Positions 54,947 to 62,390 of a DNA stretch of 62,390 nucleotides are shown here, piece by piece (within the stretch, counting starts at the first letter, position 1; the number at the start of each line of letters is the position of its first letter). The notes beneath the pieces are model-generated. The model was not told where the DNA came from, did no database searches, and saw nothing but the letters and a program-made list of their open reading frames with translations. This DNA comes from Candidatus Undinarchaeales archaeon. GTDB taxonomy: Archaea > SpSt-1190 > JASMDC01. The translations under genes and the position numbers were made by a program. The stretch covers positions 1-62,390 of the forward strand of contig JASMDC010000023.1 in assembly GCA_030753015.1 (NCBI GenBank), in the 5' to 3' direction.

Positions 54947-57016
54947 ATGGGGCACACCCTTATCATCGCGGAGAAACCTCGGGCCGCCGCCCGAATTGCT
55001 GCGGCCTTGGCCGACGGTGAGGTGATCAAGAAAGGAAGTAAGGGCGTCTCATCGTATTCGCTCACTCGAAAAGGCCAGAAGATTGTCGTTGCTGCCGCCG
55101 TTGGCCACATCTACTCCCTCCGTCAGAATGATAAGAAGGGCTGGGTGTACCCGGTGTTCGACGTGGACTGGGCCCCTGCGCACGAGGTTCGCAAGGATGG
55201 GGCATACACGAAGAAGTACCTCACTGCCCTCAAGGCGGCGGCCAAGGGTGCCGAGCGCTTCGTAGTGGCCTGCGACTTCGACATCGAGGGTAGCGTTATC
55301 GGGTTCAACGTACTGAGGTTCGCCTGTAAGAAGAAGGACGGCGCCCGGATGCACTTCTCCACCCTCACCAAGCACGAGCTTGAAGAGGCTTTCGAGAAGG
55401 CTAATCCTTCTCTCGATTGGGGTATGGTGGAAGCGGGGCTCACCCGCCATGTAGCCGACTGGTTCTTCGGTATCAACCTCTCACGGGCTCTTACACTGGC
55501 CATCAAGAACGCTGTCGGGATGTTTAAGGTCATGAGCACAGGCCGCGTCCAAGGCCCCACGCTCGCCATCCTGTGCGAGCGCGAGCTCGAGATCAAGGCT
55601 TTCGAGCCCACGCCGTTCTGGCAGCTCGAGCTCCATGCCTTGGTGGACGGGGCTGAGATCGTGGCGCTCCACGCTGCCGACAAGTTCTGGAAGGAGAATG
55701 AGGCCACGACCGCCCACTCACGCTCCCAGGCCGATCCCGGTATCGTTCAAGACGTTTCCCGGAAGAAGTTCGAGCAGGCCGTACCGCCGCCCTTCGACCT
55801 CACTTCGCTCCAATCCGAGGCATACAAACAGTTCAGCTTCGCCCCCACACGCACTCAGGAGCTTGCTCAGACACTCTATGAGTCGGGGCTCATCTCGTAC
55901 CCCCGTACATCGAGCCAGAAGCTCCCCGAACGCATCGGATTCAAAGAGATCCTCAAGGGACTTGCCTCCCTCTTTCCCAAGGAGGTCGAGCTCCTCTTGG
56001 GCATGAAGAAGCTCGTCCCCAAGGAGGGGAAGAAAGAGGATTCTGCCCACCCCGCCATCTACCCCACTGGCGAGAAGCCCAAGATGCTCACCGATCAGGA
56101 GCGAAAGCTCTTCGATCTTATCGCCCGCCGTTTCCTTGCGGTCTTTGGAGAACCCGCCGTTCGGGAGAGCCTGAAGGTCACCATCCGCGTGGGCGAGGAA
56201 GACTTCATCGCAGAGGGGAAGCGCACGGTGGAACCGAACTGGCACACACTCTATGGACCCTTTGCTAAGTTCGAGGAGGTGCTCCTCCCGAACATGGACA
56301 AAGGGCAGGAGGTCAGTGTACAGAGCATCGACCTTCTTTCGAAGGAGACGCAGCCCCCCCGGCGCTTCTCGCCCGCGTCACTTGTCAAGCGGATGGAGAA
56401 AGAGAACATCGGCACCAAGGCAACGAGAGCATCCACGGTGGACACCCTTTCATCGCGAGGGTACGTGACCGGGGATATTATCGAGGTCACTGAACTAGGT
56501 CTTCAAGTCTACTCCATCCTCACCAAGTACAGCCCGCGTATCCTCGATGTCGAGCTAACACGCCAGTTCGAGGATGACATGATCCGCATCCAGGAGCGAA
56601 AGACCGACCGGAAAGAGGTGCTCGAGCGACTGCGTTCCAAGCTCGAGGACATCCTAACGGAGTTCAAGTCCAACGAGGACAAGATCGGAAAAGAACTTGC
56701 TGATGCTATCAGAGCCACCAACCGTGCAGCCCTGGTCATAGGCCCCTGTCCGGTATGCGGGAAGGGCGACGTTCGCATCATCCGTAGCAAGAAGAGCGGT
56801 AAGCGCTTCGCGGGATGTTCGAACTACCCCGAGTGCTCCAACTCTTACCCCCTACCCCAGCGCGGGAACATCATCGGTAGTAAGAAACCATGCCCGACAT
56901 GCAATCACCCCAGGATTACGGTGAAGGGCGGCGGCAGGCGACCTTGGAGGATGTGCCTGAATATGGAATGCCCGAGTCGGGAACGGAAAGAAGAAAACGG
57001 AGGGAATAATCCGTGA
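54947..57016 (+). CDS. topA: DNA topoisomerase I (type IA)
   Basis: 689 residues. A Toprim domain ([30 protein letters not shown] with the metal-binding acids) is followed by the type IA core with the active tyrosine in [13 protein letters not shown]. Two C-terminal zinc fingers (CPVCGKG...CSNYPEC and CPTCNHP...CLNMEC) bind DNA. It relaxes negative supercoils. It starts at an ATG preceded by ACTTATAAAAC at 54910-54920. The stop overlaps the start of leuS (GTGA). Confidence 0.94.
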
Positions 57017-59793
57017 GCGGTTATGACCACGCTCGGATCGAGCAGACATGGCAGAAGCGTTGGGAGGAGGCCGGTATCTTCAAGGTCTCCGAGGATCCCG
57101 CTAAAAAGAAGTTCTACTGCCTCGAGATGTATCCCTATCCATCGGCGACCCTCCACGCCGGTCACCTGCGTAACTACGCCCTTGGCGACACCCTCACCCG
57201 CTTCAAACGCATGCGGGGATACAATGTGCTCTACCCCATGGGCTACGATGCGTTCGGCCTACCCGCGGAGAACGCTGCCATCAAGCATAGCACCGATCCT
57301 GAGACGTGGACCTGGGACAACATCAACGCCATCAAGGTCCAGCAGAAGCGCATGGGACTAAGTTACGACTGGGACCGTCAGATCCAGAGCTGTACTGAGG
57401 ACTATTACCGCTGGAACCAATGGATCTTCCTCAAGCTCATGGAGAAGGGTCTGGTGGACCGACGCGGAGCCATCGTTAACTGGTGCCCGTCGTGCGCCAC
57501 CGTGCTGGCCAACGAGCAGAACATCAACGGCAAGTGCTGGCGCTGCTCCTCCACCGTGGAGTATAAGGACCTCACCCAGTGGTACTTCAAGATCACCGAG
57601 TATGCCGAAGAGCTGCTGTCCGGTCTAGAGGGCCTTGACTGGCCAGAGCGTGTCAAGATCATGCAGCGCAACTGGATCGGGCGCAGCGAGGGCACCATCA
57701 TCGAGTTCGAGGTCAAGGATACCGGTGAGACCGTGCCCATCTTCACAACCCGCGCCGACACCCTCTACGGCGTCACCTTCATGGTGTTCGCTCCCGAGCA
57801 TCCTTGGGTGCACACATGGGTGAAAGGCACCGAGTACGAGGAGGAGTTCAACGCCTTCCTTGCCGAAGTGCAACTGGAGGACAAGTTCGAGCGAACCGAC
57901 GCGGAGCATGAGAAGAAGGGTATGTTCATCGGGAAGCACGCAATACACCCCATCCTCGGGACGGAGATCCCGATCTACGTGGGTAATTTCGTTATCTACG
58001 AGTACGGTGCCGGGGCCGTTATGGCAGTTCCTGCTCACGACCAGCGCGACTTCGAGTTCGCTAAGAAATTCGACATCCCGATCATCGTGGTCATCCAGGC
58101 CCGTGGCTACAAGCTGGAAGCGGATAAGATGCACCGCGCATACATCGAGGACGGCGACCTGGTCAACTCGGCCGAGTTCGACGACTGGGAGAACCGCGAC
58201 GCGATCGACGCAATCGGGAAGAGGCTCAAGGAGATGGGTAAGGGAGGCCCCACGGTGAACTACCGACTCCGTGACTGGCTGATCTCACGTCAGCGCTACT
58301 GGGGCACACCGATCCCCATTATCTATTGCGACAAGTGCGGTATCGTCCCCGTGTCAGAGGACCAGCTGCCCGTTTTGCTTCCCAAGGACGTCACGTTCAG
58401 CGGGGGTGGGAATCCCCTGGAGACCTCCAAGGGATTCGTGAACACTACCTGCCCCACATGCGGCAAGCCGGCTCGACGCGAGACGGACACAATGGACACC
58501 TTCGTGGACTCGTCCTGGTACTTCCTGCGGTACTGCTCCCCTCAAGAGAACGCTGCTCCTTTCGCTCGGGACGCGGCCCAGTACTGGATGGCTGTGGACC
58601 AGTACATCGGTGGTATCGAGCATGCGGTGTTGCACCTGTTGTATGCTCGCTTCTTCACAAAGGCACTCCGGGACATGGAGCTCCACAGTATCGACGAGCC
58701 CTTCTCGGCCCTCCTGTGCCAAGGCATGGTGAACAAGGAGGCACCGTTCTGTGAGACGTGCGATATCCACCTCCAACCAGGCAGGCACGAGAATAGGAAA
58801 TGCGTCGAGTGCGGGAATCCCTATGTCATGCGCACGGCCAAGATGTCCAAGAGCCTGGGGAACACCGTCAACGTCATGGAGCTCATCGAGCGGGCGGGCG
58901 CCGACGCCTCGCGCTTGTTCATCCTCTTCGGCTCGAATCCCGAGAAGGAGTTCGAGTGGGCAGACCAGGGGCTGGAGAACGCGAGCAAATTCCTCCATAG
59001 GCTCTACCATACACTTAGTGAGCATCCCTCCGACGTGCGCGAGGACATCATCTCAACAGACGATCATATGCTCTTCCTGCTCCACCGCACCATCCGCAAT
59101 GCTACCCGCAACTACGAACAGTTATTGTTCCGTTGGGCAATCCATGAAGTGATGGCATTCACCAAAGAGCTCAGCCGATACAAGCTAGGGAGCGTCAACC
59201 GCAAGGTGTACGAGGAATGTGTCCGTAACCTCGCACTGCTCGTGGCCCCCATCACACCACACCTTGCTGAGGACGTGTGGGAGCACCACGGGAGGGGGGG
59301 ATTCATCTCGCTGGCATCGTGGCCCGAGCATGATCCGAAAGTGCTCACGCCCGAGTCAGAGTACCAGTGGGGCCTCTACAGCGCAATCTGCGACGATGTG
59401 GTAGAGATCCAGGGCATCCTGGGCAGCAACAAGCACGAAGCGATCACGCTCATCGGAGCTGCCGACTGGAAGTTCGACTTCATGCGGCGGTACTCGGAGG
59501 TCTCTGGCGACGAGCGCGATCAGGGCACGCTCATGAAGGCCGTCATGGAGGTGGACACCCTCCGCCGGTACGGGAAGCAGGTCTCACAGCTCATCCCACG
59601 TCTCCTGAAGAATCCCTCGTGGGTACCGTCACTCGTGCTGTCTGAGGATGACGATGCGCAGGCTCTGGAGCTAGTTGCCCCCATGGTGTCCAAACGTTTC
59701 GGATGCGCGGTGGAGGTCGTCCGCGAGACCCTCTCGAAGGACGCGAAGGCCACCCGGGCATTGCCGGGGAAGCCCGCGATCGTGGTACAATAG
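57013..59793 (+). CDS. leuS: Leucyl-tRNA synthetase, bacterial type
   Basis: 926 residues. Class I motifs are [13 protein letters not shown] (HIGH) and KMSKSLGN. The sequence follows the bacterial/mitochondrial LeuRS pattern ([53 protein letters not shown], editing domain with [13 protein letters not shown]). Archaeal LeuRS is a distinct type, so this gene is probably a bacterial acquisition, now embedded in an operon with topA through a GTGA overlap. The product charges tRNA-Leu, one of which lies at 21233-21317. Confidence 0.94.
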
Positions 59794-59794
59794 C

Positions 59795-60472
59795 TCACTC
59801 GACCGGTCGACAGGGAGCCCCCCCCGGGAGCCCCATCCTCAGTCGCACGTTATCCAAGTCTGCGAGCTCTTCAGCTGTGAGCGCCACCTCTCCACCGAGC
59901 CGTCGGGCCCTGTACACCGTCTCTGCAAGATGCTCCACCTCCTCCAGGCGGTGATAAGCCTCCTCGAGGTCGCCACCGAAGGTCACGACACCGTGATTTG
60001 CCAGGAGCACCGCGTTGGCATCAGCAAGGAACGGTGCCACCGATTCCGGGACCTCCCACGTCGAGAGGGTCGCATAGGATGCCAAGGGTACGGCGCCCAC
60101 GGTGAGCACGCTCTCGGGTAGAACGGCGCGGTCCAAGGGGATGCGTGCCGTAGCGAAGGCCGTGCAGAATGGAGGGTGTGCATGGACCACCGCCGCCACA
60201 TCAGGTCGTACGGTGTACGCAGCCAGATGGAGCCTGAACTCGGAAGATTGCCTGTAGAGGCAATCCTGGCGAACGAGCTTGCCGGCACCGTCCACAAGCA
60301 CTATCTGTTCAGGTGACATCTCACCCTTGCACACCCCGGAAGGTGTTGTGAGGAACAGGTCATCCCCGCATCTGGCGGATATATTTCCCGACGTCGCCAC
60401 GACGTAGCGGTGATCGTACATCCGTCGACCTATGTCGCAGATACGCTGTCGCAACCAGTCGGGATTGGCCAT
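59795..60472 (-). CDS. Class II aldolase (L-fuculose-1-phosphate aldolase type)
   Basis: 225 residues. The zinc site is formed by AHPP with its preceding His (VVHAHPPF) and a later His (LLANHGVV), and SSEFRLHLAAY supplies the catalytic glutamate. The ATSGNISAR segment binds phosphate. Members split sugar-1-phosphates such as fuculose- or rhamnulose-1-phosphate into dihydroxyacetone phosphate and lactaldehyde. Class II aldolases of this type occur in fucose/rhamnose microcompartment loci. It lies 6 bases after the DeoC-fusion gene in the same transcript. Its own encapsulation peptide is not obvious. Confidence 0.85.
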   Translation of the reverse strand: MANPDWLRQRICDIGRRMYDHRYVVATSGNISARCGDDLFLTTPSGVCKGEMSPEQIVLVDGAGKLVRQDCLYRQSSEFRLHLAAYTVRPDVAAVVHAHPPFCTAFATARIPLDRAVLPESVLTVGAVPLASYATLSTWEVPESVAPFLADANAVLLANHGVVTFGGDLEEAYHRLEEVEHLAETVYRARRLGGEVALTAEELADLDNVRLRMGLPGGAPCRPVE

Positions 60473-60478
60473 TGGAAG

Positions 60479-61891
60479 CTAGTTACCTTCACCGCTCTCG
60501 GCGCCTTTAGTGATGGCGACGGAAGCGGAGGCTCCGATACGGGTCGCTCCCGCAGCGATCATGGCCTTGGCGGTCTCGGTATCACGGATCCCACCTGATG
60601 CCTTTATTCCCATGTCGGGGCCGACGGTGGTCCGCATGAGCGCGATGTCCTCCACAGTGGCACCCGAGGGCCCGAATCCTGTTGAGGTCTTGACGAAGTC
60701 GGCGCCGGCCATCTTGGCCAATAGGCAGCCGCGCACCTTCTCATCCTTGCTCAGGAGCGCGGTCTCAAGGATTACCTTGACGATCGCTTGGCCTTGAGCC
60801 GCTTCGACCACGGCCTCTATATCGCGACGGACGAGATCGTCGTCCCCGGACTTGAGCGCACCTACGTTGATGACCATGTCTATCTCGTTGGCGCCATTTG
60901 CGATGGCATCACGGGTTTCAATACCCTTGGTCGTGGGTGTTGTGGCACCCAGTGGGAATCCGATGACAGTAGTGACCTTCACATTGGATCCCTTCACCAG
61001 GTCGGCGGCTTGCTTGACGTTTGTGGGATTGATGCACACCGAGGCGAAGCCGTACTGGACGGCCTCCTCGCATAGCTTGCGGATCTGCTCGGTGGTGGCG
61101 TCGGGTTTGAGCAGAGTGTGGTCGATCGTCTTGGCGATCTCCTTGTCCTCGATCCGCGTTCCCGCCGCTGCGCCGATGCGGTCGGCACCAGCAGCGAGTA
61201 TGCCACGGACACTATCGGCGTTGTTGATCACGCAAAGCCCGCATGCCAGGCACTCCTCACCCTTGCCCTGTGCGCACACGAGGGATACCTTCTTCCCTCC
61301 GGCGATATCGGCCAGGTCGACCAGTGTGAGCCCGAGCTCCTCCAAGCCATCGAGCATGCCCTCCAAGCGTTTACGGGCCCCATCAGGTACCTGCTCCAGG
61401 GGGATACATGCGGAGGGGATACCGTCACGTGCCGCTACGACGGTCTTTCCCTGAAGAGCTGCGAACACCGCGAGCTTGACAGGTAGTGTGTCTGTTACGG
61501 TGTCAGCTATCTTCGATGCCGACGCAAGGTCCAGAAGAGGGATGAATACCACAGATGCACCTTTGAGAAGGTTGAGTACATCAGGGCCATCGCTCTCGGT
61601 GAGAATAGTAGCTCCGGGCGCTGCCACGGAGAGCCTCGAACTCGGGAAGAGCGCCTCTGCCCCGTTCGCGAGCACGATGGTGGCGTCGGATGCCTCGGCA
61701 CAGATGCACCGCACCTGGTCGAGCACGGCATCCACATCGCCGCGGTCCCCTGCGAGCACAACGAGCACTCCTCCTGGGGGAGTCGAGGGAGCAAAGGATT
61801 CGGGACACGCTTTCTCAGGCGCTTCCATTCGCTTCATGACCTGCTCCGTGACCTTCTTAACAAGCGATTCGATGTCGGTGTCCTGAACCAT
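60479..61891 (-). CDS. deoC: Deoxyribose-phosphate aldolase fused to an N-terminal microcompartment-type domain
   Basis: 470 residues. Residues 6-22 ([17 protein letters not shown]) form an amphipathic helix followed by a Pro/Ala linker, exactly the form of an encapsulation peptide. Residues about 41-200 are a Rossmann-like or flavoprotein-like domain ([33 protein letters not shown]). A C214-x2-C217-x2-C220 motif follows. Residues 250-470 are class I Deo[27 protein letters not shown], the Schiff-base lysine in [10 protein letters not shown], and IKASGGIRD. It splits 2-deoxyribose-5-phosphate into acetaldehyde and glyceraldehyde-3-phosphate. The ATG at 61891 follows an AGAGG site; EutN is directly upstream. 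Confidence 0.88.
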
Positions 61892-61896
61892 TGTAA

Positions 61897-62187
61897 TCAA
61901 CCTCTGACCAGTGCTGGGTCGGGTATGTTCACTCCCTCTACATGGCCAATTATTGCTAGGTCCACGGGGAGAAAGTGGCCCTCGAATGGGTGGGTGGCCT
62001 CCTTCTTTGTGGCAAGATATACCAGTTCACCAGGCCCGGTCGTGCCTAGTGCGTCGACCGCGACCTCATGACGGCCAATTACCTCTCCGGCCTCATTGAC
62101 GCGCTGCACAACAAGGAGCTTGATGCCCGTGAGATGGGGGTCCTTTTGTGTACATACGACATTGCCCACCACCTGCGCGAGGAGCAT
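61897..62187 (-). CDS. eutN: EutN/CcmL-type microcompartment vertex (pentamer) protein
   Basis: 96 residues, standard for the family: start [20 protein letters not shown], then [20 protein letters not shown] and AIIGHVEGV near the end. Such proteins form the pentamers that cap shell vertices of bacterial microcompartments. The ATG at 62187 is preferred over one 13 codons earlier: a TTTAAA-type TATA box at 62211-62218 implies transcription from that ATG, and family members start here. It is the first gene of the eutN-deoC-aldolase operon. Confidence 0.92.
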
Positions 62188-62210
62188 GGCGGGAAGGGAG
62201 CGCTGCAGCT

Positions 62211-62220
62211 TTAAATAGGT
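62211..62220 (-). promoter_or_regulatory. TATA box of the microcompartment operon
   Basis: Minus-strand ACCTATTTAA lies about 27 bases before the ATG of eutN. Together with the terminator just upstream it shows that eutN-deoC-aldolase is a separate unit from the gene cut by the right edge. Confidence 0.6.
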
Positions 62221-62235
62221 TGTCACAGGGTTTAG

Positions 62236-62273
62236 AATAAGAAGATGGGGGCCCCGGCCATGGCCGGAACCCC
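62236..62273 (-). terminator. Hairpin terminator of the gene at the right edge
   Basis: The minus strand forms GGGGUUCCGGCC/GGCCGGGGCCCC, a 12-bp stem whose two non-Watson-Crick positions are U-G pairs on that strand. It is followed by AUCUUCUUAUUCU. The core CCGGCCATGGCCGG at 62254-62267 is a perfect palindrome. Confidence 0.65.
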
Positions 62274-62311
62274 TCCAGCCCGTTCTCTATCTGTTTGCGA
62301 TCTCTGTAAGG

Positions 62312-62390
62312 TTACACGACCTGGTGCGATACCTTGAATCCGCTGGGCAGGTTCAGACCAATGATGATGCGCTGGTCCTTCACATCCCCG
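62312..62390 (-). CDS. C-terminal end of a gene cut by the window edge
   Basis: The minus frame ending at TAA (62312-62314) reads GDVKDQRIIIGLNLPSGFKV then SHQVV. The frame is open to the edge, a terminator follows, and it points the same way as the microcompartment genes. It may be another member of that locus, but 25 residues do not let me recognise the family. Confidence 0.55.
   Translation of the reverse strand, partial: GDVKDQRIIIGLNLPSGFKVSHQVV

Follow-up and report, generated by a model that had tools for sequence, protein, structure and literature searches.

The analysed stretch of DNA (the window, 62,390 nt) is the entire contig JASMDC010000023.1 (hereafter C33) of a Candidatus Undinarchaeales archaeon, and its end coincides with the contig end. 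The three minus-strand genes that close it encode a BMC-P vertex protein of the EutN/CcmL family (61897-62187), a flavoprotein-like domain joined to deoxyribose-5-phosphate aldolase (DeoC) in one protein (60479-61891) and a class II (FucA/AraD-type) aldolase (59795-60472). They very probably form one end of a sugar-phosphate-utilising (SPU)-type bacterial microcompartment (BMC) locus in an archaeon, a locus known from its genes alone. In profile searches the products scored above the cut-offs of EutN_CcmL PF03319 (78.6 bits vs 25), DeoC TIGR00126 (285 bits vs 117) and Aldolase_II PF00596 (175 bits vs 22). The genes are separated by gaps of 5 and 6 bp, hence they were taken as one operon, and a TATA box, TATTTAAA, was found on the minus strand at 62210-62217, 22 bp ahead of the EutN start, for which ATG at 62187 is more likely than GTG at 62226. 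The HTTTAAA pattern occurs 7 times in the window, where 2.8 occurrences were expected. Among the neighbours on C33, uS13, uS4, uS11 and RNA polymerase subunit D were each above the archaeal-model cut-off, and the aldolase gene ends 1 bp away from a convergent leucyl-tRNA synthetase gene. The original prediction, made from the letters of the window, had described one transcript with its own TATA box beside archaeal housekeeping genes, and this description held.

The same prediction had set hexameric shell genes beforehand as the test of a compartment, and two BMC-H and two BMC-T proteins were encoded on another contig, C51, of the same bin (3.85 Mb, 98.92% complete). All five PF00936 domains of these four proteins (two BMC-H, a tandem BMC-T and a CcmP-like double BMC-T) were above the cut-off, as were the three PF03319 proteins of the genome, two encoded on C51 and the third on C33, and the BMC-H, BMC-T and BMC-P genes are intact open frames with no stops. 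The C51 genes run in one direction in the order CcmP-like BMC-T (C51:145649-146296), BMC-H, PduM-like, BMC-P, acylating aldehyde dehydrogenase (ALDH), PduS, tandem BMC-T, BMC-H, BMC-P, N-terminally extended triose-phosphate isomerase (TPI) and RpiB, which ends at about 153262 and is followed by pilin-like genes up to the contig end. An A+T box, TATTAAATA, lies shortly upstream of the first gene. The aldehyde dehydrogenase that the prediction had said to look for was thus present, and it belongs to the acetaldehyde-type acylating subfamily (PRK15398, 642 bits vs a cut-off of 403; NNVLC motif).

The SPU assignment was made because the signature enzymes fit the published SPU definition (PMC8217296, PMC4207490), since a DeoC-type enzyme (pfam01791) and RpiB (pfam02502) are both present in the genome; RpiB, TPI and ALDH are encoded beside the shell genes on C51, and DeoC with the third BMC-P on C33. 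The catalytic motifs are intact in DeoC, TPI, ALDH and the class II aldolase: the DeoC catalytic domain (60509-61138, minus strand; TIGR00126) carries the Schiff-base Lys (FVKTSTG) and the DMVIN and IKASGG motifs, and the class II aldolase carries the zinc histidines HAHPP...ANHG and the catalytic-Glu motif SSE. DeoC enzymes yield acetaldehyde and glyceraldehyde-3-phosphate, and class II aldolases of this group yield an aldehyde and dihydroxyacetone phosphate (DHAP). A role in (deoxy)ribose-phosphate use is well supported by the presence of RpiB and TPI. The third BMC-P (PF03319), whose relatives in the PDB are CcmL, EutN and the Haliangium ochraceum BMC-P, occupies the position of EutN3 in the myxococcotal and Asgard loci described below.

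The DeoC protein is more than an aldolase with a targeting peptide. Ahead of its catalytic domain lie an encapsulation-peptide-like helix, a linker, a folded domain and a cysteine cluster. The helix (22 residues, 61826-61891, minus strand) was present in the predicted model, has a motif in common with two other locus proteins, ALDH and the PduM-like one, and is kept in the DeoC proteins of Myxococcota and Asgard archaea, where it is followed by a variable linker. The motif was found in three of the four candidate cargo proteins and in one of 111 other genes of the same genome. The predicted encapsulation-peptide-like N-terminus stood as far as the helix is concerned, but the extension is a whole domain of about 200 residues rather than a peptide alone. 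This domain (61271-61780, minus strand; pLDDT, the confidence score of the AlphaFold model, mostly 82-92 here) appears to have the UbiX/HFCD flavoprotein fold, as judged from the comparison of the model with flavin mononucleotide-dependent Cys-decarboxylases and DmrB (Foldseek E 7e-8; VIA-align Z of about 17, root-mean-square deviation 2.2-3.2 Å over 145-159 residues); the HFCD/UbiX flavoprotein sequence models remained below their cut-offs. Between the two domains, a C-x7-C-x2-C-x2-C cluster (61232-61276, minus strand) is a possible metal or Fe-S site that is kept in the myxococcotal homologues and absent in the Heimdallarchaeota locus L019. Profile comparison, made with shallow alignments, indicated that the PduM-like protein of the locus (L009:12796-13524), which is TIGR02536-like, is homologous to the DeoC N-domain (probability 98.5%, E 1.9e-15), a relationship detected in this comparison alone, as BLAST run directly between the PduM-like protein and the DeoC fusion gave no match. 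The same UbiX/HFCD fold was predicted for a bacterial relative of the PduM-like protein (Z of about 16), and this homology may offer a clue to what PduM, a protein of unknown function, does. Flavin-binding families are frequent in BMC loci (Axen et al. 2014, PMC4207490).

The order of the genes across the two contigs was then considered. C51 terminates within a pilin-like gene, and the minus strand of C33 opens with the final 25 codons of one. The ends of C51 and C28 have 77 bp in common, and the ends of C33 and C84 have another 77 bp in common, which points to an unresolved repeat in the assembly, so that C51 may continue into C33 or into C84; the direct end overlap between C51 and C33 is 0 bp exact, and both ends border the missing repeat. 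In three loci of Deltaproteobacteria/Myxococcota (L013, L014 and L023) the genes follow one another unbroken, in the order PduM-EutN-ALDH-PduS-BMC-T-(BMC-H)-EutN-TPI-RpiB-EutN-BMC-H-DeoC fusion-aldolase, and the contiguous run from TPI and RpiB through EutN3 and BMC-H to the fusion and the aldolase makes C33 a much better partner for C51 than C84. The archaeal locus is probably split by pilin genes in the genome too, and not just in the assembly. As side observations on these contigs, C51 also encodes a 3,922-aa cysteine-rich repeat protein (L102:4058-15826, minus strand), and C28 contains, at about 12.75 kb of L100, a brief stretch of N, given as X, within a long open reading frame.

A search for related loci was extended to other archaea. 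Among 394 archaeal genomes, strong BMC domains were found in this genome alone, and four other genomes had a weak PF00936 match (best 26.4 bits, three of the four below the cut-off). The genome scan also matched Heimdallarchaeota CP070760 (L019), in whose GTDB phylum 8 of 227 genomes carry BMC domains. In seven of these eight (L019, L146-L151) the order is the same, citrate synthase-PduL-BMC-H-PduM-like-EutN-ALDH-PduS-BMC-H-BMC-T-RpiB-EutN-EutN-DeoC fusion; AckA follows the fusion in six of the seven (no AckA was matched in L146), the PduM-like gene was unmatched in L148, and the eighth genome (L152) showed only citrate synthase-PduL-BMC-H within the stretch read. Since seven Asgard genomes have a conserved sister locus, one of them in a contig of 4.94 Mb, archaeal BMCs are not the product of one bad bin. 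In a tree of five proteins our locus was sister to the Asgard loci (support 99/96), and both together stood next to Myxococcota (99/98); the grouping of our locus with Myxococcota was rejected (p-AU, the approximately unbiased test, 0.025), and an earlier quick tree agreed in joining our locus to the Asgard loci (support 90). These sequence trees imply transfer between domains. With respect to gene fusions, L146 encodes citrate synthase with PduL as one open reading frame of 614 aa, which heads the BMC locus (L146:14435-16279, minus strand), and the pair is adjacent in the seven other Asgard genomes, so that citrate synthase may be a coenzyme A (CoA)-recycling microcompartment enzyme. In myxococcotal genomes (L107-L111) one PduL is part of a longer open frame (about 580-800 aa), which suggests PduL fusions.

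Several points weigh against an archaeal SPU-type locus, and they concern its origin as well as its function. The source is a metagenome-assembled genome (MAG) with 5.01% estimated contamination, and the junction of C51 with C33, although most likely, was deduced by synteny. The shell contig could then be wholly or partly bacterial and binned with an archaeon by mistake, an explanation with which the agreement of the gene order with Myxococcota and the lack of any convincing BMC domain in the other archaea compared (nine relatives of the same class and 384 more) would be consistent. However, an archaeal eL33 gene, above its model cut-off, lies on C51 2.4 kb upstream of the shell operon, archaeal-type pilins (with an N-terminus that weakly matches PF07790) follow the shell genes, C33 carries ribosomal protein and RNA polymerase genes of archaeal type with the EutN-DeoC-aldolase operon directly beside the leucyl-tRNA synthetase gene, and the tree placed Asgard archaea, not Myxococcota, closest. 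The composition of the shell operon also fits the genome: its tetranucleotide usage compared with C33 gave 0.70, close to other stretches of C51 (0.73-0.76), whereas the homologous delta-proteobacterial locus at equal GC gave 0.36; as 0.54 was reached by one bacterial stretch and the C33 operon, which is short, came to just 0.51, this match is supporting evidence only. A misassembly with a bacterium, which the original prediction had considered, is unlikely in view of the repeat ends, the synteny and the composition, and a binning artefact is largely refuted and has very little probability left. The same-class relatives compared (G001-G009) are small genomes of 0.6-1.1 Mb, and the present one is of 3.85 Mb.

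Regarding function, the phosphotransacylase PduL that the prediction had expected did not materialise: neither PduL (PF06130) nor Pta (PF01515) was matched by profile search in the genome, about 1% of which may be missing, acetate kinase (AckA) was not found in it, and a genome search for ADP-forming acetyl-CoA synthetase gave weak partial matches only, far below the cut-off and none at equivalog level. This leaves the genome with no canonical core for CoA recycling. Further points on this side are that the encapsulation-peptide motif is a post hoc one, read off the locus itself, that the N-terminal helix of TPI falls narrowly outside it, and that the RpiB of the locus carries Asp in place of the catalytic Cys of the E. 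coli enzyme. This Asp was seen in all aligned SPU-associated RpiB proteins (L009:18781-19263; SPU loci among L013-L092 and L146-L151); the replacement suggests a changed mechanism or substrate, and the activity of RpiB is not certain. The genes could thus be truly archaeal but serve a scavenged nucleoside/pentose pathway with no organelle, their shell proteins decaying or acting as sheets or scaffolds, and both the lack of PduL and acetate kinase, which most sister loci have, and the probable interruption by pilins would agree with this. We regard it as highly improbable, because BMC-H, BMC-T and BMC-P are all intact and above their cut-offs, and the catalytic motifs and encapsulation-like helices are retained. 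A compartment of the fucose/rhamnose type, handling fuculose-1-phosphate and lactaldehyde instead of ribose-type sugars, was also weighed. The closest PDB relatives of the class II aldolase are L-fuculose-phosphate aldolases, and its Glu/His motif is present, but no glycyl-radical propanediol dehydratase (GRM5-type) occurs among the locus genes, the whole genome not having been searched, and DeoC, RpiB and TPI indicate pentose phosphates. Moreover, every listed substrate-specific NCBIfam aldolase model stayed below its cut-off, and other ketose-1-phosphates fit equally well as substrates; this alternative is unlikely. Of the two substrates put forward originally, deoxyribose-5-phosphate gained support from RpiB and TPI, and nothing favours fuculose/lactaldehyde over ribulose-1-phosphate or 5-deoxyribulose-1-phosphate; that chemistry is possible, with no specific support.

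Taken as an SPU-type compartment, the locus would work as follows. A polyhedral shell would form, and DeoC, ALDH, the PduM-like protein and TPI would be recruited through their N-terminal helices. Inside, acetaldehyde and glyceraldehyde-3-phosphate would arise from deoxyribose-5-phosphate by DeoC cleavage, an aldehyde and DHAP would arise from a ketose-1-phosphate (ribulose-1-phosphate, 5-deoxyribulose-1-phosphate or fuculose-1-phosphate) through the class II aldolase, and TPI would connect both triose phosphates. The trapped aldehyde would be oxidised by ALDH to acyl-CoA, with PduS and the flavoprotein domains as putative electron carriers, and the acyl-CoA would probably exit to central metabolism. 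The (deoxy)ribose phosphates are predicted to come from nucleic acids; an AMP phosphorylase encoded elsewhere in the genome could supply sugar phosphates. No alcohol dehydrogenase was seen among the locus genes, the rest of the genome not having been searched. Because the genome yielded no PduL, Pta, AckA or canonical ADP-forming acetyl-CoA synthetase, acetyl-CoA would leave by another route, for which we infer use in central metabolism; SPU loci lacking PduL are known from Marinimicrobia (PMC4207490). We tentatively suggest, as a possibility rather than an expectation, that at least two distant archaeal lineages share one SPU lineage, which was rewired here to work with neither phosphotransacylase nor acetate kinase, with lumenal redox handled by encapsulated UbiX-fold flavoproteins (one of them fused to DeoC) and PduS, and with acyl-CoA passing to central metabolism instead of CoA recycling by PduL.

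At the contig end, a terminator-like hairpin (62248-62273, minus strand) sits between the TATTTAAA box and the upstream archaeal type IV pilin-like gene, to which it belongs; the 3′ end of that gene (62312-62390, minus strand) is cut by the contig break inside the repeat common to C84. The convergent leucyl-tRNA synthetase gene (57013-59793, plus strand) scored far beyond the cut-off of the bacterial LeuRS model, with a match spanning residues 4-779, and its best agreement with the archaeal model was near the C-terminus; it is likely a bacterial-type LeuRS acquired by the archaeal host.

If this reading is correct, protein-shelled organelles of this kind reach a second domain of life, as a known organelle type with an altered core. 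The Asgard sister locus offers a concrete target for electron cryo-tomography in Asgard enrichments, and the handling of electrons and CoA by metabolosomes becomes a testable question in view of the DeoC-flavoprotein fusion, its homology with the PduM-like protein and the lack of PduL. A 2017 analysis states that archaea have no microcompartments (PMC5683377), the PduA-like prediction in Methanobrevibacter smithii (PMC10939349) concerns a single protein and no locus, and our search of open-licence PMC papers gave no report of archaeal or Asgard microcompartments. A survey of BMCs lists SPU loci for 26 bacterial phyla, and BMCs of any type for 45 phyla, all bacterial in its text (PMC8217296).

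Compared with the SPU BMCs (Axen et al. 2014, PMC4207490; Sutter et al. 2021, PMC8217296), the present locus has the same DeoC (pfam01791) and RpiB (pfam02502), acylating ALDH, PduS and TPI, and the same shell classes BMC-H, BMC-T and BMC-P, including a CcmP-like BMC-T(dp) and three BMC-P. It differs in its archaeal host and archaeal-type promoters, in its apparent splitting by archaeal pilin genes, in that neither PduL nor acetate kinase turned up anywhere in this genome, and in the fusion of DeoC to a flavoprotein-like domain, which also occurs in the myxococcotal and Asgard loci. The Asgard loci have the core enzymes and the DeoC fusion in common with ours but differ by citrate synthase-PduL at the head, by AckA at the tail in six of the seven and by lacking TPI and the class II aldolase. 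The loci of the Myxococcota/Deltaproteobacteria MAGs resemble ours in gene order, TPI, DeoC fusion and class II aldolase, whereas their host is bacterial and PduL is present at the locus head and elsewhere in the genome; the aldolase of L013 has in addition a C-terminal peptide resembling an encapsulation peptide. Finally, the H. ochraceum (HO) BMC shares the BMC-P triplet, and HO-5816 (5v74) is the closest solved structure to our BMC-T(dp). A DeoC-type enzyme with an encapsulation peptide is mentioned for some HO genomes (PMC8217296). The function of the HO BMC is not established, whereas the locus described here, with C51 and C33 taken together, carries the full SPU set.
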